From: Herminiimonas fonticola
GTDB lineage: Bacteria; Pseudomonadota; Gammaproteobacteria; Burkholderiales; Burkholderiaceae_D
NCBI RefSeq assembly: GCF_003293745.1
Contig: NZ_PTLZ01000003.1
Coordinates: forward strand, 1-64,000
DNA length: 64,000 nt
Direction: 5' to 3'
A program made the position numbers and the translations under genes. Of the stretch, positions 1 through 8,443 are shown one piece after another. The first letter of the stretch is position 1; every line of letters starts with the position of its first letter. Under the pieces are notes generated by a model. It was not told where the DNA came from, did not search any database, and saw only the letters and a program-made list of their open reading frames with translations.

Positions 1-139
1 CACCCATTGCCATCTCTTGCACAGGAGCCGTTGTCTGCGGACAGACGTAGGCAGCCATTGCTATTCCTGAGGTCAGAACGGTCATGACCAGGAAGCAAGC
101 AATTAAGCGGCAAAAAGATGAAAAGGAATGTCGGCGCAT
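1..139 (-). CDS. Partial exported protein (N-terminus only)
   Basis: Only the first 46 codons are inside the window; the gene continues past the left edge. The ATG at 139 is followed by two arginines and a histidine, a hydrophobic stretch of about 18 residues and an AMA-A type signal-peptidase site near residue 30, so the product is probably secreted to the periplasm. The mature part begins AYVCPQTTAP and looks methionine-rich. I do not recognise the family; small exported proteins of this look often sit near metal-resistance genes, but nothing here proves it. It is transcribed divergently from the sensor gene at 483. Confidence 0.5.
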   Translation of the reverse strand, partial: MRRHSFSSFCRLIACFLVMTVLTSGIAMAAYVCPQTTAPVQEMAMG

Positions 140-482
140 TTGACCTATTTATAAAACCTTTTGCAGTTTAGTGCAATTTATTTATATTCCACTGCTGGTG
201 AATTATTTCGACTTGGTACTTGTCGCTTTACATGATTTGTAAGTAGATAATATACGTATGTATTATTCAGGGGCCTGCGTATGATGATTAAGCAACAGTT
301 GCGTCTACCTACCTAAACTGGAGCGCGTTCACTCACTACTTCCGTTTCACAATTTTGAATCAGAAAACAAGCAAGATGTTGCATGCAGAATTTTTCTCCG
401 AAGTTAGAGTAAGTAATTTACACATTACGGCACGCTCAAATATGATTTTAAAGAAATTCGTGCCAGCCCTCACGGTGCAGCA
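140..482. other. AT-rich divergent intergenic region
   Basis: This 343-bp gap separates two divergent genes and is visibly richer in A and T than the core genome to the right. I see no RNA gene and no convincing -35/-10 pair. TTTACA at 227-232 is followed by TAATAT at 248-253, but the spacer is only 15 bp. An 11-codon ORF near 282 has no ribosome binding site and is not called. Confidence 0.4.
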
Positions 483-3400
483 ATGAGCGATACCGAAAAG
501 AGATCGGCAAAAGATGAACTCCGAACAGATCTCGAATTAATTCAGATTGTCGGCCAAGTTGCTCGGATCGGCGGCTGGTCACTTTCCTTGCCGTCCCGAG
601 ATTTGTACTGGTCTCCTGAAGTCCGAGCCATTCATGAAGTGCCTCCGGACTACCAGCCTGCTCTCCAAAGTAGTATTGAATTCTATCCGCCTGCATACCA
701 AAACCAAGTTGAAAAATGCGTTGAGGATTGCATCAAAAGCGGTACGCGGTTTGATTTTTCGGTGCCTATCATTACGGCCAAGGGAAGATCAATTTGGGTG
801 CGGGCTATTGGTGAATGTAGACGAAATGAAAATGGAGAAGTTTCTAGACTTGAAGGTGCGTTTCAGGAAATCACAGATGAGTACGAGAAAAATCGTCGCC
901 GCATAGAGAGTGAAGCAACGTTGTCAGCAGTATTTAGTCAATCGTATATGTTTCAGGGATTATTGAATCTCGAAGGCGTGCTAGTTGAGGTCAACGATAT
1001 CGCAGTTTTTGGTTGCGGCTTTACTCGAGAACAAGTACTAGGGAAGAAATTCTGGGAATGTGGGTGGTGGAATCTAGATATCGAGATTGCGAAAAAAATA
1101 GAACAGATAGTGATTCGTGCGCTTCAAGGTGAAAATATCGTTGAAGAAATGGATTACTTTACGGGTAGTGGCGAGCGAAGATTAACTGAATTTTCTGCAG
1201 TACCAATTCGTAATTCAGAAGGCAGCATCATGCGAATACTTGCAAGCGGTATTGATGTTACCGCTCGCAAGAACACAGAGCTGGCCTTAAAGCAAAGTCA
1301 AGAGCGTTCCAGCTCGATTGCACGAGCAACCAACGACACGATCTGGGACTGGGATCTTCAGACTAACGCAATTTGGTGGAATGATGGCATCGAACGGCTC
1401 TTCGGTTTTTCACGAAGCGAAATCGAACCAACCATTGTTTCCTGGATCAGCCGAATTCATCCGGAGGATATTTCTTCCATCGAAGACAGCATCACAAAAT
1501 TTATTAGTGAGGGTGCAACTGACGAAATCTGGTGTGGCGAATATCGTTTCTCCAAACACGATGGTAGTTATGCCAACGTATACGACCGAGGCTTTGTTCT
1601 ACGCGATTCTAGCGGCAAAGGTATACGGATGGTTGGAGGGATGGTCGATGTTACGCCGCAAAGAATGGCAGAGGCCGAAACCCGTCGTTTGAACCGTGCG
1701 CTAAAAATGCTCAGTGCTTGCAGCGAAAAGTTGATTCGCACAACAAAGGAGCAAACACTTTTAGAAGAAATTTGCAAACTGTGTGCAGAGGTTGGAGACT
1801 ATGATATGGCGTGGGTCGGCTATGCACAGGATGATGAGGAAAAATCCATTCTACCTGTGGCTCATTATGGTGATATGACTCACATTAGCCGTATAAAATT
1901 ATCCTGGTCTGCCGAAAAACCAAATGGGCAAGGCCCCGGTGGACGTACTGTGCGCTTAGGCAAGGCAATTGCTGTTAGTGACGTTCGGGAAGATCCGACG
2001 TTTGAATTATGGCGCAATAGTATCGTAGCGGTCGGTTTCCTAAGTGCCGTTTTTTTGCCATTGATCAGTCAGGGAAAGGTATTCGGTTTGCTCGGCTTGT
2101 ATGCAAGCGAGCCGCACAACATCAGCGATGACGAGATGAATATGCTGCAAGAAATGGCAGATAATCTCGCTTTTGGCGTCATGAATATTCGTGTTCGCCA
2201 AGAACAACAGCGACTTCAAACGGCTATTTTGAAGATTGCTACCAGTGTTTCAGCGCCCAGCGATACGACATTCTTTCATCAACTGGCCATCAGCATGACG
2301 GAAGCTCTTGATGCGCCCATTGGAGTAATCGCTGCGCTGAGCAAAGGTTCTTTTTCAACTGCACGTTCAATCGCACTAGTCATCGACGGCGAAATTGTAG
2401 AGAATCAGTCGTTTACGTTTCAATCCACGCCCTGCGAAGCTTCACTAACGCAAGATTGCAAATTGATATCCAGTGATCTAGCAACACTATATCCAAGCGC
2501 AACTCAATTTATAGCGATGGGAGCACAAGCCTACGTAGGAATCCCACTCCTTAGTAGCGGCGGAAATCTGTTGGGCCTGATGTTCGTACTTTACAGAGCA
2601 GCGTTGTCGGACGCTGAACTCATTGTTTCAACTCTTAAAATATTTGCCGCACGTGCATCAACGGAACTTGAAAGGTTAGAAGCAGATTCTCAGTTGCGTG
2701 AGCAGGCGTCCTTACTCGATAAGGCACATGATGCGATTCTTGTGCGTGATTTGGATCACCGTATTCTTTTCTGGAACAAGGGAGCGGAGCGGCTTTATGG
2801 TTGGACCGCAGCGGAAGCAGTCGGACAATTTGTGAATCGTCTACTTTATTTAGATGCCAGCTCATTCGATGTCGCAACTCGGAATGTGTTTGAGCAGGAT
2901 GAATGGAATGGTGAGTTAAAGCATATAGACAGGGAAGGAAAAGAAATTTTTATTGAAGGTCATTGGACTTTGGTGCGGGATGATGAAGGCAAGCCAAAAT
3001 CCATTTTAGCGATTAACACTGATATCACCCAGCGTAAAGAATCTGAGCGAGAAATTTACTCTTTGGCTTTTTATGACAGCCTTACGGGCTTGCCGAATAG
3101 ACAGCTTTTGGTCAATCGCCTGCACCAAATTATGCTGGCCGGATCAAGAAGAGAAAATAACTGCGCCATATTTTTTATTGACCTTGATAATTTCAAGGCC
3201 ATTAATGATACCCAAGGTCATGATGTGGGTGACCAGCTATTGAAGCAAGTTGCAGAACGACTCAGGGGATGTGTGCGAGAGAGTGATACGGTCTCGCGCA
3301 TTGGTGGCGACGAGTTTGTGGTGGTCTTAAGTGATTTTTCTAATTATTCAGACGATGCTGCCAGACAGGCACAGTCTGTTGCGGACAATATTCTAAGTGC

Positions 3401-4370
3401 ATTTAGTGAGCCTTTCGATCTGCAGGGCTATCTCCATTTAACTACTCCAAGTATCGGTGCCACTCTATTCAAAGACAACTCGATCACTGTTGATGAGTTG
3501 CTCAAACGCGCTGATCTAGCGATGTACGAAGCTAAAGCTGCGGGGCGAAACATTATTCGCTTTTATGATCCTGAAATGCAGGCGGCTGTGTCAAGGCGCG
3601 TCAAGATCGAAAAAGAACTACGTAGGGCATTGGAGCGTTCAGAATTTGTATTGCACTATCAACCCCAAGTAAATTTATCTACAGGAAAGGTGATTGGAGT
3701 AGAGGCTTTGATCCGTTGGCAGCACCCTGAGTTAGGGATGGTTCCTCCGAACTCTTTTATTCCTGTAGCCGAGGAAGTCGGATTGATCGTACCTATGGGT
3801 GAATGGGTACTTCGTACTGCTTGCGTCCAAATGAAAGCTTGGCATGATATGGGACTGGGTCAATTACGGATCGCAGTTAATCTATCTGCACGCCAGTTCT
3901 CTCATGGATGTATTGTGGAAATGGTTCGCAACACTCTGCAACAAAGCGGTCTTGAAGCTCAATATCTTGATCTGGAACTTACCGAAAGTTTGGTCATGAC
4001 AGATGTAGAGAGCGCAATCGGAATTTTAGAAGAACTTAGTGGATTAGGCATACAACTTTCCATTGATGATTTTGGAACGGGTTATTCCAGTCTTGCTTAT
4101 CTGAAGCGCTTTCCCATCGACGTACTTAAGATTGATCGCTCGTTTATTAAAAACATCCCGGAAAATGCTAACGAAGCCACTATCGCGCTTGCCATTATTT
4201 CGATGGCACACAGTCTTGGCATGAGAGTGCTGGCAGAGGGTGTAGAAACAGAGGCACAATGTGAATTCTTGGCAAAGAATAAGTGCGATGAAATACAAGG
4301 TTTCTTGTTTTCAAAGCCGCTGCCTTCTGAAGAATTAGAGGCCTTGATATTACTAGAATCACAGAAGTGA
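483..4370 (+). CDS. Multi-PAS/GAF diguanylate cyclase/phosphodiesterase
   Basis: A 1295-residue cytoplasmic signalling protein for cyclic di-GMP turnover, with no transmembrane segment seen. The order is three PAS domains (about 20-135, 145-265, 275-395), two GAF domains (about 405-565 and 580-735), a fourth PAS (about 745-865), GGDEF and EAL. The GGDEF motif is intact at residues 941-945 and is preceded, five residues upstream, by an RESD inhibitory-site motif (RxxD), so cyclase activity with product inhibition is plausible. The EAL motif is at 1074-1076, and ELTES, DDFGTG and KIDRSF are all kept, so phosphodiesterase activity is also plausible. The ATG at 483 has no obvious Shine-Dalgarno sequence. 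Codon use looks more AT-rich than in the genes beyond 6263. The sensed ligand cannot be read from the sequence. Confidence 0.93.
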   Translation: MSDTEKRSAKDELRTDLELIQIVGQVARIGGWSLSLPSRDLYWSPEVRAIHEVPPDYQPALQSSIEFYPPAYQNQVEKCVEDCIKSGTRFDFSVPIITAKGRSIWVRAIGECRRNENGEVSRLEGAFQEITDEYEKNRRRIESEATLSAVFSQSYMFQGLLNLEGVLVEVNDIAVFGCGFTREQVLGKKFWECGWWNLDIEIAKKIEQIVIRALQGENIVEEMDYFTGSGERRLTEFSAVPIRNSEGSIMRILASGIDVTARKNTELALKQSQERSSSIARATNDTIWDWDLQTNAIWWNDGIERLFGFSRSEIEPTIVSWISRIHPEDISSIEDSITKFISEGATDEIWCGEYRFSKHDGSYANVYDRGFVLRDSSGKGIRMVGGMVDVTPQRMAEAETRRLNRALKMLSACSEKLIRTTKEQTLLEEICKLCAEVGDYDMAWVGYAQDDEEKSILPVAHYGDMTHISRIKLSWSAEKPNGQGPGGRTVRLGKAIAVSDVREDPTFELWRNSIVAVGFLSAVFLPLISQGKVFGLLGLYASEPHNISDDEMNMLQEMADNLAFGVMNIRVRQEQQRLQTAILKIATSVSAPSDTTFFHQLAISMTEALDAPIGVIAALSKGSFSTARSIALVIDGEIVENQSFTFQSTPCEASLTQDCKLISSDLATLYPSATQFIAMGAQAYVGIPLLSSGGNLLGLMFVLYRAALSDAELIVSTLKIFAARASTELERLEADSQLREQASLLDKAHDAILVRDLDHRILFWNKGAERLYGWTAAEAVGQFVNRLLYLDASSFDVATRNVFEQDEWNGELKHIDREGKEIFIEGHWTLVRDDEGKPKSILAINTDITQRKESEREIYSLAFYDSLTGLPNRQLLVNRLHQIMLAGSRRENNCAIFFIDLDNFKAINDTQGHDVGDQLLKQVAERLRGCVRESDTVSRIGGDEFVVVLSDFSNYSDDAARQAQSVADNILSAFSEPFDLQGYLHLTTPSIGATLFKDNSITVDELLKRADLAMYEAKAAGRNIIRFYDPEMQAAVSRRVKIEKELRRALERSEFVLHYQPQVNLSTGKVIGVEALIRWQHPELGMVPPNSFIPVAEEVGLIVPMGEWVLRTACVQMKAWHDMGLGQLRIAVNLSARQFSHGCIVEMVRNTLQQSGLEAQYLDLELTESLVMTDVESAIGILEELSGLGIQLSIDDFGTGYSSLAYLKRFPIDVLKIDRSFIKNIPENANEATIALAIISMAHSLGMRVLAEGVETEAQCEFLAKNKCDEIQGFLFSKPLPSEELEALILLESQK

Positions 4371-4428
4371 TATCTCCAAATTATCGGCCTCTCATTGTTT
4401 GACGAAAGCTGATCAAACCGTACGACCC

Positions 4429-4498
4429 GAAAATCAGCCATCGCGCGCAGATTGATGCGCGTGTTTTTAAAGGTTTTCGTCGATGGTTGCTGATTTTC
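4429..4498. terminator. Nested inverted repeat, possible terminator
   Basis: The outer arms are GAAAATCAGCCATCG (4429-4443) and its complement split by three extra bases (4481-4498). Inside sits a 6-bp perfect stem CGCGCA / TGCGCG (4444-4461) followed by TGTTTTTAA. The inner stem with its T-run could end the sensor mRNA; the outer arms make a larger cruciform than a terminator needs. It lies 59 bp after the sensor stop codon and before the convergent integrase. Confidence 0.5.
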
Positions 4499-4632
4499 TA
4501 CGTCGGTCTTTAACCTGGCTGAAAACTTGATGCGTGTAAGTGATTGTCTCTGTCTAGGTGGAGACTAACTTAAGATGAATATTCCTAGCGTCTTTGCCGC
4601 CACTTTGTGGATGGGCACTGGTTGCCTAAAAT

Positions 4633-6036
4633 CTAAGTCTTCCGCATAACGATGGCGGTATCAGGCGCGGTCAGGATCAAAGCCAGACGGTCGCCGAGCA
4701 GTTGCCATGCTTCCCGTTTTTCCGTTGCGTAGTCATAGGTCTGGTACGTCCTGCGCAGTTTGTTCGGTTCGACGTGGTTTAGGCAACGCTCGATAACATC
4801 TGGCACTACTCCCAAGCTTTGCATCATGGTCGCGCCGGTTCTGCGAAGGTCATGAGGAACCCAATCCCCAGCAGATAAAATAAGCGCATTGGCTTTCTTG
4901 CTGCGGTTCGACATTGGCTTGCCACCTAGTGGTTTTTGACGGTCACGTATCTGCTTTGTAGTGGACTTTATGCAAACGTATGTTTCGTCGTCCTCACGCG
5001 GAAAACACCACGCACTTTTACCAGATAGTTGCTTCAATTTTTGGAAGTAGGGCAGGGCGAACGAGGACAGGTAGATGGTATGCGCCATCTTGTTTTTGGC
5101 GTTCTCTTTCGGGATTGTCCATATGCCGGCATCAAGATCGATATGTTCCCACCGAGCCTTGGTGACCTCGCCAATGCGACAGCAGGAGGACAGCATGATC
5201 CACATGCAAATTTCCGTGCGCTTCAGCAGGCTAGCATCTGGCAGCTTGGCGGCCAGTTCCTTGATTTCGTCAGCAGATAGCGTACGAGTGCGCTCGGCCC
5301 CGTCGTAGTCTTCAGACGTGATGCGCTTTGCTTCAAGGTGTTCCACCGGATTATCGTCGATGAGTTTTTTCCATGGCCTACGCTTCTCTGCCCATCGAAA
5401 CATCTGCTTTAGGTCAGACAGCAGCATAACGGCCATGCGGTTGGAGCCGCGATTGACTACGCCTTCAAGGATGCTGCGTATATCCTTTTCTGTGAGCGAT
5501 TTAAGTGCCTTGGTACCTATTTTTGGCAATACGTCACGGGCAAACAAACGCCGCAGCTCAGCGCCTTTGTCTTTGCGGTCAGTGGTGATAATCCATTCGT
5601 CAAAAAGGTCTTGAGTGGTTAGATTTTCCGCTTCCAGTTGCAGCTTGATCGCCGCCACTGCAGCTTCCCTTTCTTGCTTTTCTCTGGCAAGTCGGACAAT
5701 CTCGTTTTGTACAAACTCTTTTGGATCTGTACTATTTTTTCGCCAGTCGTTCAATTCGACAGCAATGCGCCGTGCAGTCGCAAGCGTTAGTCGCGCATTG
5801 GCTTCTAGTTTATATAGTGTCGTTTCAAATTCCGGCAAGCTGGCGTCGTAATCACCCAGTGCCATATAAACGGATTTAGTACCTACCTTGTAGGTGTACA
5901 TCCAGACACGCGAAACGCTCCCCGATTGACCCTTGCGAAACCGAAGTGATAACCCGTTGCCGTCCGATTTCGTTTCGTCGCTTTTGGTCGGACGGTACTT
6001 TTCAATCGCCGTAGTGGTTAGTTTTTGCGTGGCCAT
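4633..6036 (-). CDS. Tyrosine recombinase, P4-type integrase
   Basis: A 467-residue integrase that would catalyse site-specific insertion and excision of a mobile element. An N-terminal DUF4102-like DNA-binding region (about 1-100) and a SAM-like core-binding region (about 135-235) are followed by the catalytic domain. Likely catalytic residues are R287 (in CCRIGE), H395 and R398 (in HDLRRT), H421 (in LNH) and nucleophile Y436 (in TYDY). It is full length for the family. The ATG at 6036 has AAGG about 9 nt upstream. The gene points away from the tRNA-Arg fragment at 6214-6263, 178 bp from its start codon, the usual arrangement at the end of a P4-like island. No excisionase gene is visible. 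Confidence 0.93.
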   Translation of the reverse strand: MATQKLTTTAIEKYRPTKSDETKSDGNGLSLRFRKGQSGSVSRVWMYTYKVGTKSVYMALGDYDASLPEFETTLYKLEANARLTLATARRIAVELNDWRKNSTDPKEFVQNEIVRLAREKQEREAAVAAIKLQLEAENLTTQDLFDEWIITTDRKDKGAELRRLFARDVLPKIGTKALKSLTEKDIRSILEGVVNRGSNRMAVMLLSDLKQMFRWAEKRRPWKKLIDDNPVEHLEAKRITSEDYDGAERTRTLSADEIKELAAKLPDASLLKRTEICMWIMLSSCCRIGEVTKARWEHIDLDAGIWTIPKENAKNKMAHTIYLSSFALPYFQKLKQLSGKSAWCFPREDDETYVCIKSTTKQIRDRQKPLGGKPMSNRSKKANALILSAGDWVPHDLRRTGATMMQSLGVVPDVIERCLNHVEPNKLRRTYQTYDYATEKREAWQLLGDRLALILTAPDTAIVMRKT

Positions 6037-6066
6037 TTGCTGCCTTTATTATTATCTAACCGGAAT

Positions 6067-6219
6067 ATTGGTAAGAAATTGGTAAGAAGTTTTACATGGA
6101 TTGTGCTGTACGTCAATAGACGAGTTTGGACAAAAAATAATGTAACTAATTGAATATTAAAGTAAAAATTATTTATATTTGGATTGTATTGGATGTTAAA
6201 AAACATCTTATTTCTTACC
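6067..6219. repeat. Candidate integrase-binding repeats
   Basis: An 11-bp unit ATTGGTAAGAA is repeated in direct tandem at 6067-6077 and 6078-6088, just upstream of the integrase start. Its core GGTAAGAAA reappears inverted as TTTCTTACC at 6211-6219, touching the tRNA-derived attachment sequence. Position and spacing suggest arm- and core-type sites for the integrase, and the pair near the start codon could also mediate autoregulation. This function is inferred; the repeats themselves are plain in the sequence. Confidence 0.5.
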
Positions 6220-6263
6220 TACGAACCAAGGGGTAGTGGGTTCGATTCCTGCCAGCCGCACCA
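6214..6263 (+). other. tRNA-Arg 3' fragment, attachment-site half
   Basis: The stretch contains the anticodon loop CTACGAA (6219-6225, anticodon ACG), the 3' anticodon strand CCAAG (6226-6230), a T-arm GTGGG-TTCGATT-CCTGC (6236-6252), the 3' acceptor strand CAGCCGC (6253-6259) and ACCA (6260-6263). The 5' half (acceptor, D-arm) is missing and replaced by AT-rich DNA. A 3' tRNA remnant beside a tyrosine integrase is the standard mark of an island end, with the crossover in the anticodon stem-loop. The intact tRNA-Arg should lie at the other end, left of the window. Confidence 0.82.
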
Positions 6264-6280
6264 AAACAAGCAGTAAATTA

Positions 6281-6313
6281 ACGGGTTAGCGCCACAAGCG
6301 CTAACCCGTTTTT
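6281..6313 (+). terminator. Rho-independent terminator
   Basis: A perfect 12-bp stem (6281-6292 with 6298-6309), loop CACAA, is followed by a run of T. It lies 17 bp after the tRNA-Arg remnant and is most likely the original terminator of the tRNA gene, left behind on the chromosomal side of the insertion. Confidence 0.9.
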
Positions 6314-6579
6314 CTTTGTCGAATGCTTTTAGTTAGGTGGCTTTATTTTTGTTGGCTGGTTAATAATCAAGCTGGTCCTCTGTAATCTGATGCGACAAGT
6401 CAAAAAACAAGCAAAAATCAGGAAGATATGCTGCGAACGAATATCAGTTAGCTGCAAAATCAATATCTGCTGAACGTGGTTCTGCAAATCGATCTATAAT
6501 TCATTCATCCCAGTAATTATTCAGGCTGCTCTCTGCTCAAATAATTTGCTTTTGCGCAGTGTTGTCCTCATTACCTCTG
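6314..6579 (+). promoter_or_regulatory. Intergenic region with a -10 box
   Basis: The 266-bp gap before the small exported gene holds a consensus TATAAT at 6495-6500. The -35 side is weak (TGAACG at 6471-6476, 18-bp spacer). If used, transcription would start near 6507 and give a leader of about 70 nt. I see no other feature in the gap. Confidence 0.4.
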
Positions 6580-6894
6580 ATGAAATCGCGTCTTCTCGTT
6601 AATGTTTGGCTTGCCTTTGCCCTGCTGTTTGCGCAGCAGTTGGCGTTCGCCGATACGTTAACGAACATCAAGCGCGCGCAGGTTGATTATCAGTGCATGT
6701 ATGATGATGGCGCTTGTTTCGATGGCGGTGCAGTTTCGCATTTGGTCTTCGACGATTTCGATAATGGTCTGACCACATCCTTCTCCTTACTGGAATTACC
6801 TAATCTTGCAATTGAACAGCCTCAAGCTTCGTTCACGCAATTTTTCTCTGCTGTTTCCCCGTATTACTTCTCTCGCGCCCCACCTCTCCTGTAG
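6580..6894 (+). CDS. Small exported protein of unknown function
   Basis: A 104-residue ORF starting MKSRLLVNVW, with a clear signal peptide ending in the AFA-DT region (about residue 24). The mature part is acidic in its middle, has two cysteines (in QCMYDDGACF) and ends SRAPPLL. A GTG seven codons upstream (6559) is possible, but the ATG gives the better signal peptide. No ribosome binding site stands out. The proline-rich end recalls small DUF2946-like exported proteins, but this is only a resemblance and I do not assign the family. Confidence 0.5.
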   Translation: MKSRLLVNVWLAFALLFAQQLAFADTLTNIKRAQVDYQCMYDDGACFDGGAVSHLVFDDFDNGLTTSFSLLELPNLAIEQPQASFTQFFSAVSPYYFSRAPPLL

Positions 6895-7126: not shown

Positions 7127-8443
7127 ATGAATAACAATCAAACAAGCGCATCGAATATTTCGAACGCAAAAGGTTACAAAAATCGGTGGGTGCAGCTCAT
7201 CATCGGCATTATCTGTATGGGCCTGGTCGCCAACTTGCAATATGGCTGGACTCTGTTCGTTACGCCTATGGACAATGCGCACCACTGGGGTAAAGCGGCA
7301 ATTCAACTCGCGTTTTCTATCTTTATCGTGACAGAAACCTGGTTGGTTCCTATCGAGGGCTACCTGGTTGATAAATTCGGCCCACGTCCGGTTGTCGCTG
7401 GCGGTGCCATCTGCGCTGGTCTCGGCTGGGTTCTGAACAGCTATGCAACGTCCTTGCCTATGCTGTACACCGCAGCTGTTATCTCGGGTATCGGCGCAGG
7501 TTGCGTCTACGGTACTTGCGTTGGTAATGCGTTGAAATGGTTCCCGGATCGTCGTGGTCTGGCTGCCGGCTTGACTGCTGCAGGCTTCGGCGCAGGCGCT
7601 GCGATCACCGTGATTCCAATCGCGAACATGATCAAAGAAGCAGGTTACGAACATACCTTCTTCACCTTCGGCATTATTCAAGGCGTAGCGATCTTCATTG
7701 CTGCTTTGCTGCTGGTTAAGCCAGTTGTTCCTAAAGGTGTGGTTGTTGCAAGAAATCTCGCAACTAAAGTTGATTACACGACCAAGCAAATGTTGAAAAC
7801 CCCAGTATTCTGGGTTCTCTACGTGATGTTTGTTCTGGTGTCTTCGGGAGGTTTGATGGCAACGGCTCAACTCGGTCCGATCGCCAATGATTTCGGTATT
7901 GCTGCCTTGCCTATGACATTGTTCGGCGCAACCTTGCCACTGTTGACGATGACGCTGTCGATCGACAACGTTGCCAATGGCTTGACCCGTCCTTTGTGCG
8001 GTTTTGTTTCAGATAAAATCGGTCGCGAAAACACGATGTTCATCGTTTTCATCGGTGAAGGTTTAGCCTTGTTGGGCTTGATGCAGTTTGGTCATAACCC
8101 ATATGCATTCATGGTATTTGCCGCCATGGTGTTCCTGTGCTGGGGCGAAATTTTCTCGATTTTCCCAGCAATCTGCGCAGATACCTTCGGTGGTAAATTT
8201 GCTGCGGGTAACTCGGGCACGTTGTACACCGCTAAAGGTACTTCTGCTTTGCTGGTTCCGTTTGCATCAGTCCTGGCGGCTGGCGGTAACTGGAATCGCG
8301 TGTTCATCGTTGCTGCGATTGTCACTGTGGGCGCAGGTTTGTCAGCCAAGTTCATCCTTGCCCCAATGCGCAAACGCATGATCGAAGACGGTGCAACTAA
8401 AGCTGCGGCAATGGAAGCGGGTAACCAACGCGTTGCAGCTTAA
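7127..8443 (+). CDS. oxlT: Oxalate/formate antiporter, MFS OFA family
   Basis: A 438-residue inner-membrane carrier with about 12 hydrophobic helices, matching the OxlT group of the major facilitator superfamily, which exchanges oxalate for formate. The two membrane-embedded basic residues known to be essential in Oxalobacter OxlT have likely counterparts here: R288 (in GLTRPLCG) and K370 (in YTAKGTS). GAGAGG lies about 11 nt before the ATG. It is a single-gene unit with strong terminators downstream. No formyl-CoA transferase or oxalyl-CoA decarboxylase gene is nearby, so the true substrate could be another small carboxylate. Confidence 0.83.
   Translation: MNNNQTSASNISNAKGYKNRWVQLIIGIICMGLVANLQYGWTLFVTPMDNAHHWGKAAIQLAFSIFIVTETWLVPIEGYLVDKFGPRPVVAGGAICAGLGWVLNSYATSLPMLYTAAVISGIGAGCVYGTCVGNALKWFPDRRGLAAGLTAAGFGAGAAITVIPIANMIKEAGYEHTFFTFGIIQGVAIFIAALLLVKPVVPKGVVVARNLATKVDYTTKQMLKTPVFWVLYVMFVLVSSGGLMATAQLGPIANDFGIAALPMTLFGATLPLLTMTLSIDNVANGLTRPLCGFVSDKIGRENTMFIVFIGEGLALLGLMQFGHNPYAFMVFAAMVFLCWGEIFSIFPAICADTFGGKFAAGNSGTLYTAKGTSALLVPFASVLAAGGNWNRVFIVAAIVTVGAGLSAKFILAPMRKRMIEDGATKAAAMEAGNQRVAA

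Follow-up and report, generated by a model that had tools for sequence, protein, structure and literature searches.

A tRNA-Arg(ACG) island in Herminiimonas fonticola and the probable joint exchange of integrase arm-binding domains and arm-type repeats

What does half of a tRNA gene beside an integrase gene say about how an island was inserted, and about how its integrase finds the two ends? The question is raised by the first 6.3 kb of a 64,000-nucleotide stretch of Herminiimonas fonticola DNA (the window; positions 1 to 64,000 of NZ_PTLZ01000003.1, here contig C3), whose first base is the very start of the contig in a genome (G000) of 11 contigs and 3.1 Mb. At 6219-6263 (plus strand), 45 bases (CTACGAA...CACCA) correspond to the end of a tRNA gene: they run from the anticodon loop to CCA, the 5' half being absent, and a tyrosine integrase gene lies next to them. 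The first-pass annotation, made from the letters of the DNA, had noted these features with a terminator directly behind, and had predicted that a sensor gene, a truncated exported gene and more DNA to the left belong to one mobile element that re-forms or duplicates the 3' end of a tRNA-Arg gene. The comparisons reported here make it highly probable that the locus is an island of the P4/IntSXT integrase type in tRNA-Arg(ACG), and that its integrase is a natural chimera whose N-terminal domain (N-domain) was exchanged, as a matched module, with the short arm-type repeats at the island ends.

Results

The right end of an island in tRNA-Arg(ACG)

ARAGORN called no tRNA at 6219-6263. The fragment is identical at 44 of its 45 bases to positions 32-76 of an intact tRNA-Arg(ACG) gene on the plus strand of contig C1 (C1:1475097-1475173), 9.8 kb before the end of that contig, and is read as the displaced 3' part of this gene (attR). 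The sole mismatch, A for C at window position 6235, falls at tRNA position 48. A search of the genome with 100 bases around the fragment (E <= 0.001) gave three matches: the window itself, tRNA-Arg(ACG), and tRNA-Arg(CCG) at 83%. The tRNA-Arg(ACG) gene is intact in all 12 same-genus genomes compared, with 77/77 bases identical. An intact tRNA-Arg with matching 3' sequence, as anticipated by the first-pass annotation, is therefore present; the idea that the tRNA 3' end is re-formed or duplicated holds insofar as gene and fragment coexist, although the copy is imperfect.

The integrase gene (4633-6036, minus strand) is an intact open reading frame (ORF) of 467 residues whose 5' end faces the fragment, with 182 bases between them. 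Its product matches PF13356 (Arm-DNA-bind_3, which we take to be the former DUF4102), PF22022 (Phage_int_M) and PF00589 (Phage_integrase), all above the curated cut-offs, and so has the arm-binding, core-binding and catalytic domains of the complete P4-type integrase that had been proposed. Among 49 relatives, the catalytic R287 is kept in 48, and K314, H395, R398 and H421 in every one. A tyrosine is present in the segment TYQTYDY, from residue 430 of this integrase; across the 49 relatives, no tyrosine column passed a 94% conservation filter. A sequence search against solved structures gave a single weak match, 2kj5 (residues 160-220, E=0.0041). The proposed terminator was recovered by eye behind the fragment, as a G+C-rich hairpin and T run at 6281-6314 (plus strand).

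Related genomes were compared across the same site. The gene at 7127-8443 (plus strand), whose product we take to be a transporter, lies outside the island, 0.86 kb from the fragment. Its orthologue is found 3' of tRNA-Arg(ACG), on the same strand, in four relatives: at 0.9 kb in G008 (66% identity), at 2.65 kb in both G001 and G002, and at 2.98 kb in G005 (82-83% identity in these three). No relative of the integrase lies between tRNA and right flank in any of the four, and these are the insert-free relatives that the first-pass annotation had called for. G010, assembled as a single contig, has the predicted order: tRNA, a 31.6-kb element, integrase, displaced fragment and right-flank gene; its integrase is 86% identical to that of G000 over residues 117-466. 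G007 has a left end like that of G000 (83% over 113 bp) and two cargo genes, with integrase and fragment gone; this decayed sister island (L071 1870-8379) keeps its left end, two-partner genes and right terminator. G006 and G003 carry fragments of other or unassigned elements, the one in G003 lying 4.7 kb from its tRNA, and in G011 the tRNA and the right-flank gene are 24.8 kb apart, with no fragment present. G004, G009 and G012 were uninformative, owing to contig breaks or the lack of a close orthologue. Collectively, these results support window 1-6263 as the right end of a large mobile island seated in tRNA-Arg(ACG).

The integrase N-domain and the putative arm repeats vary together

The set of 49 integrase loci comprised 30 from 392 family genomes, five named records and 14 new loci from 399 order-level genomes. 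L041 (partial, 29%) was dropped, as were 10 of 40 family matches without a locus of their own and four repeats of earlier loci (L188, L191, L196, L198). A subfamily integrase (55% identity) lies by a tRNA-Arg-type fragment on a contig titled as a Klebsiella pneumoniae metagenome bin (L036), which is possibly mis-binned.

The integrases of G000 and G010 are identical at 24 of the first 120 residues and at 275 of the 300 residues from 141 to 440 (sister-pair identities are sums of 20-residue bins along the protein). Two other sister pairs behave alike, with 28 and then 271 identities (L151/L167) and 27 and then 287 (L164/L168); the break at residues 120-140 is sharp in three of the four pairs read. 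Residues 1-120 (5677-6036, minus strand) are thus the part of the G000 integrase that appears to have been exchanged. Its N-domain is closest to those of integrases in tRNA-Pro (L150-L154, L157), all of which have GGTAAGA-type repeats. Against integrases with distant catalytic domains, G000 has an N-domain similarity of 0.34-0.72 and a C-domain similarity of 0.35-0.42, whereas against its catalytic sister the values are 0.07 and 0.89.

Between integrase and fragment lies a putative pair of arm-type sites, identified by repeat comparison: TTGGTAAGAA, twice, with an 11-bp period (6068-6088, plus strand). The TTGGTAAGAA pair recurs at the left end, 57-78 bp 3' of the intact tRNA on C1, with a period of 12, and sequence matching finds a further copy, GGTAAGAA, abutting the fragment (6212-6219, minus strand). 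The repeats of G010 are of another kind, GTGCCTTA, with four copies on the side of the tRNA and two on that of the integrase. When an arm pair was defined as a tandem pair with at least 9/10 matches and a period of 11 or 12 between integrase and fragment, 42 of the 49 loci had one, compared with 1.4% of dinucleotide shuffles. A scan of single periods from 6 to 20 found 13 loci at 11, 30 at 12 and at most three at any other period. Where the T-loop could be read (41 loci), its distance from the pair is 160-197 bp. A finder allowing wider spacing was dropped after it picked chance or tRNA-derived pairs in several loci. GGAC/GGAT repeats are enriched in the interval that separates the arm pair from the fragment, at 2.95 per region against 1.31 in shuffles (41 regions, one of them window 6089-6210); these are possible directionality-factor sites.

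Across the 42 loci, similarity of the repeats follows similarity of the N-domain (Spearman 0.506, 0/1000 permutations as high; partial 0.510) and not that of the catalytic domain (Spearman -0.055, 910/1000 permutations as high; partial -0.086). Repeat classes, formed coarsely by single linkage, change five times on the N-domain tree, where the minimum is four (shuffled mean 18.0, as low in 0/200), and 14 times on the C-domain tree (shuffled mean 17.8, as low in 6/200). When the attR pair was sought 3' of the intact tRNA in 25 genomes, the genome's own pair scored 0.872 and those of others 0.621 (0/2000 permutations), and the attR and attL repeats had the same orientation in 25/25. The ungapped attL match is weak (13-15/21) in G267, G374, G023 and G097, where the tRNA-side period is 12 instead of 11. 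By analogy with the lambda-type model, the N-domain would be the part that binds the repeats. The comparisons are read most simply as a joint exchange of N-domain and arm sites at both ends, and they indicate that arm domain and arm sites have probably been exchanged naturally, and repeatedly, in this subfamily.

Terminators and the point of strand exchange

Two hairpin types accompany the tRNA and its fragments. One lies 3' of the intact tRNA in G000 (L004:9175-9220), G003, G007 and G010 (L071, L072 and L078 among the loci); the second lies behind the fragments of G000, G003 and G006 and also behind the intact tRNA of G006, G009 and G012. It therefore seems that the element brings its own tRNA terminator, and the hairpin at 6281-6314, which is like those of G006, G009 and G012, is probably the native terminator of the host tRNA. 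Two observations are misfits at first sight: the G010 fragment is followed by the island-type hairpin, perhaps from an earlier element, and a third terminator type occurs in G001, G002, G005 and G011.

Fragments of the subfamily begin in the anticodon loop for tRNA-Arg and tRNA-Pro targets alike, and sequence comparisons point to strand exchange there. In G267 and G348, T68 stands opposite G5 in the intact tRNA, and the C68 that fits G5 is found in the displaced fragment; the intact gene would therefore have its 3' end from the element. The elements in G125 and in G411/G356 have right ends that are near-identical over ~330 bp, but the bases at 42 and 48 of their fragments are not the same, with position 42 as in each host's tRNA; mapping from this comparison would place the crossover 5' of position 42. 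Repeats like the element's own lie behind the G411 and G356 fragments, so that this side may stem from an earlier element. The hosts of G125 (L173) and of G411 and G356 (L175/L176) belong to two genera, and the near-identical right ends suggest recent transfer.

The mismatch at position 48 recurs. Of the 47 fragments that could be read, 25 have C and 22 have A at position 48, and none has G or T; the A of L154 was entered by hand, no T-loop having been found there by the automatic rule. In 30 genomes with a fragment and an intact tRNA-Pro, C48 is replaced by A in 13, and the remaining fragment differences are one each at 44, 46 and 67 and a joint 65+68 change in two genomes. These 30 were drawn from 35; in the five set aside (G377, G649, G172, G371 and G168), either the intact copy or a fragment that could be read was lacking or in doubt. 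No attR pair was detected in G080, G392, G403, G236 and G305, which belong to the 30 but are outside the 25-genome attL test. A48 was found in none of the intact tRNAs compared (0/13 tRNA-Arg of the genus, 0/30 tRNA-Pro). The exact 29-base A48 form of tRNA-Arg occurs in 4 of 392 family genomes, each time once and in a fragment, a search that would miss variants elsewhere in the 29 bases. Besides the 13 from the tRNA-Pro genomes, fragments with A48 include those at window 6235 and in L073, L078 and L178. Nine tRNA-Arg fragments in seven genomes without a subfamily integrase hit comprise eight with C48 (G006, G028, G031, two in G032, two in G181, G211) and one with A48 (G003). In G003, no integrase relative was found, nor an arm pair at either end, which speaks against a tie between A48 and this integrase subfamily, unless the integrase was lost. 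On the C-domain tree, A48 is clustered (8 changes, shuffled mean 14.3, as low in 1/500).

If A48 were carried by the element, strand exchange would lie 3' of position 48. The clustering of A48 on the C-domain tree and the restriction of its tRNA-Arg form to fragments fit this account, which was dropped as the leading one after the comparison of G125 with G411/G356, where near-identical elements have fragments that differ at 42 and 48 and position 42 follows each host tRNA. It is kept as an alternative, and an unlikely one. A symmetric core half-site that would explain A48 was sought by eye in the fragment list, with nothing convincing found.

In the tRNA core, base 15 pairs with position 48. 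Since the latter lies in the displaced fragment, excision would rebuild a tRNA with A48. We tentatively consider, as a doubtful possibility, that islands competing for one tRNA core site carry an exchangeable address module, made up of the integrase N-domain and the tandem arm pairs at both ends, by which each island of a tandem array is recognised as its own, and that the displaced fragment tends to gain A48; clean loss of the island would then rebuild a damaged tRNA, and the island would be locked in place. Against a simple lock of this kind, a single base is hit though many changes would damage the tRNA, 17 of the 30 fragments lack A48, and G003 has A48 without recognisable arm sites. As to the address module, G025 holds an element (L178:1842-16100) with AATCACCCCCACA at both ends, and behind its fragment lie TTGGTAAGAG repeats, which look like the left end of a second, differently armed element at the same tRNA-Arg(ACG). 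Neighbouring elements that share a core site may thus be told apart by their differing arm modules. The like repeats behind the G411 and G356 fragments do not fit this idea.

Extent and cargo of the island

C1 ends with the same 127 bases with which C7 begins, the far end of C7 shares 127 bases with an end of C6 and with one of C3, and C9 also enters C7; no direct overlap of the C1 end with the C3 start was found. Because of these contig-end overlaps, C7 is taken to be a collapsed two-copy repeat. The overlaps and the tRNA-to-flank orientation of the relatives lead to the order C1 - C7 - C6 reversed - unread gap - C3, and the pieces add up to 9805 + 7638 + 37521 + 6263 = 61,227 bp plus the gap. 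The contig-end overlaps and the sister island in G010 suggest one island of ~61 kb plus the gap. Its cargo would include chromate and copper genes and a two-partner adhesin, beside an AlpA-type factor.

On C1, the DNA 3' of the tRNA encodes a 228-residue ORF without a Pfam family, an AlpA-family protein (L004:10442-10678, PF05930, E=1.3e-18) with a function predicted from its family, a PAS hybrid kinase, ChrA (1.3e-75) and ChrB (2.7e-44), and then the contig ends. C7 carries multicopper oxidase, CopB, CopC and CopD genes and, by the look of the sequence, a sensor/regulator pair; C6 starts with CusB- and CusA-type efflux genes and has ShlB/TPS two-partner, DUF932 and YqaJ genes. The Pfam scans covered 20 proteins in all, a subset of the island ORFs. 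For six larger C6 genes, matches lie within the G010 element, with 60-96% identity in the best stretch of each, and for two of the six also in the G007 remnant, at 79 and 66%. The copper-resistance cluster (L131 = C7; L132; start of L136) is present in two inverted copies and may permit inversion of the intervening stretch.

Within the window, the sensor gene (483-4370, plus strand) encodes a 1295-residue PAS/GAF/GGDEF/EAL protein (Pfam EAL 7e-79, GGDEF 3.4e-45, several PAS, GAF) and is read as island cargo. Its assignment to a mobile element, made in the first-pass annotation, agrees with its position within the island, but the gene has no match in the other islands compared; likewise, the proposed leftward extension of one element is supported as an island, but contig C3 itself holds no leftward DNA, the window start being the contig start. 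The 5' part of an exported-protein gene, read by eye, is cut by the contig start (1-139, minus strand), and the first ~190 bp of the window resemble the end of contig C2 (95-96%). On the right, a small ORF at 6559-6894 has a similar ORF at the equivalent place right of the fragment in G010.

Discussion

Several observations weigh against an island with an exchanged integrase module. The left and right ends of the island come from separate contigs, with an unread stretch between C6 and C3, so that the join is one we infer; the C7 copies are inverted to each other, and the C6/C3 arrangement may exist as an inverted isomer. In three of the four insert-free relatives, the flank is 2.65-2.98 kb rather than 0.9 kb from the tRNA, and other short inserts may be present there; the sites of the other 8 of the 12 relatives are occupied by something else or uninformative. 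No match to the chromate, copper or sensor genes was found in the G010, G007, G006, G003 and G011 stretches; either cargo differs between islands, or these genes, which are assigned to the island by their position, may not belong to it. As to the exchange, the sister pair L194/L195 has only a soft step (38/120 and then 236/300), no pair at 9/10 or better was found in 7 of the 49 loci (L155, L156, L158, L162, L165, L166, L169), and the loci are not independent, several being near-copies. With 7 of 39 branches starred, the tree of the N-domain is a weak one, and the repeat classes also cluster slightly on the C-domain tree.

Besides an element-borne A48, three other accounts were weighed. The short tandem repeats could serve a recombination directionality factor or another accessory protein, since direct repeats one helical turn apart are described as binding sites of such factors in the extracts of PMC7498355. 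We consider this improbable: the repeats follow the N-domain and not the catalytic domain, and they occur at both ends in the same orientation. The locus could also be a decayed relic, with fragment and integrase as leftovers and the sensor and metal genes as ordinary chromosomal genes. G007, which kept its left end and two cargo genes and lost integrase and fragment, is an example of such decay, and no match to the sensor and metal genes was found in the other islands compared. However, the integrase ORF is intact with its R/K/H/R/H residues conserved, the arm pairs at both ends are undegraded, the fragment is 44/45 identical, and four relatives are without the stretch between tRNA and right flank, all of which makes a relic very improbable. 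Fast divergence of a single domain without exchange would agree with the lower conservation of arm-binding than of catalytic domains (PMC8138268, in extract), and can be given scarcely any weight in view of the G000 N-domain, which is near those of integrases with distant catalytic domains and far from that of its catalytic sister, and of the sharp break in three of four sister pairs.

An island with a matched, exchangeable module would work as follows. On insertion, the island would restore the tRNA with its own 3' half and terminator and push the host 3' half (6219-6263) to the far side, with strand exchange in the anticodon loop. The integrase N-domain would grip the tandem arm sites (TTGGTAAGAA) at both ends, the core-binding and catalytic domains would act on the tRNA core, and the AlpA-type protein near the left end would steer excision. 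N-domain and arm repeats would have been swapped repeatedly, as a matched module, on a conserved core-binding and catalytic part.

Parts of this picture have precedents. Islander defines tRNA-gene genomic islands by an intact tRNA gene (tDNA), a displaced 3' fragment and a tyrosine integrase, with an anticodon-type crossover class; its islands have the fragment 3' of the tDNA, in the same orientation, 2-200 kb apart and on one replicon (PMC4383910, as far as its extracts describe it). The island in G000 is alike in its intact tDNA, displaced 3' fragment, integrase and probable crossover class. A place of the fragment 3' of the tDNA, in the same orientation and within that distance, would fit the synteny of G010 and the contig-end overlaps, but the two ends lie on different contigs and the ~61 kb plus gap is a sum of pieces. 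Arm sites and a hybrid integrase are outside the Islander definition as given in those extracts. The IntSXT/DUF4102 integrases, used by genomic islands and integrative and conjugative elements, have the same arm-binding, core-binding and catalytic domains; the extracts of PMC8138268 report no case in which close relatives have swapped arm domain and matching arm sites.

Single natural precedents of differing arm sites with a kept core exist in phages. In Cluster K mycobacteriophages, arm-site differences go with N-terminal substitutions, and Pixie and Tweety use the same attachment site with unshared arm sequences; however, few phages are involved, the Pixie and Tweety integrases are only 44% identical, and no domain-wise comparison of the pair is given in the parts of PMC3203893 at hand. 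In the IntF and IntB prophages of Oenococcus oeni, the integrases have different N-termini, each of which is proposed to bind its own set of direct repeats while the core is shared, but this is one pair of 92% identical integrases that differ in repeat number and spacing (PMC8074189, from its extracts). Integrase specificity is modular also in lambda and HK022, which are mentioned in PMC8371274.

Lambda and HK022 share arm specificity. Core specificity was changed there, whereas here arm specificity changes and the core target is kept. In the open-licence literature searched, no description was found of tRNA-island integrases that exchange arm domains and arm sites throughout a family.

A tRNA island with metal-resistance cargo is by itself nothing unusual. 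What lifts the finding above that is the integrase comparison, in which the probable exchange of arm domains and arm sites is followed systematically and with internal cross-checks. The recurrent change of C48 to A in displaced fragments is a parallel single-base change that calls for a functional reason. The set as a whole is a natural experiment, in which related catalytic parts, mainly at two tRNA targets (Arg-ACG and Pro-GGG), are combined with many arm domains and their matching repeats. Arm-site recognition could thus be tested directly, and both ends of islands in draft genomes could be predicted from the N-domain of the integrase.

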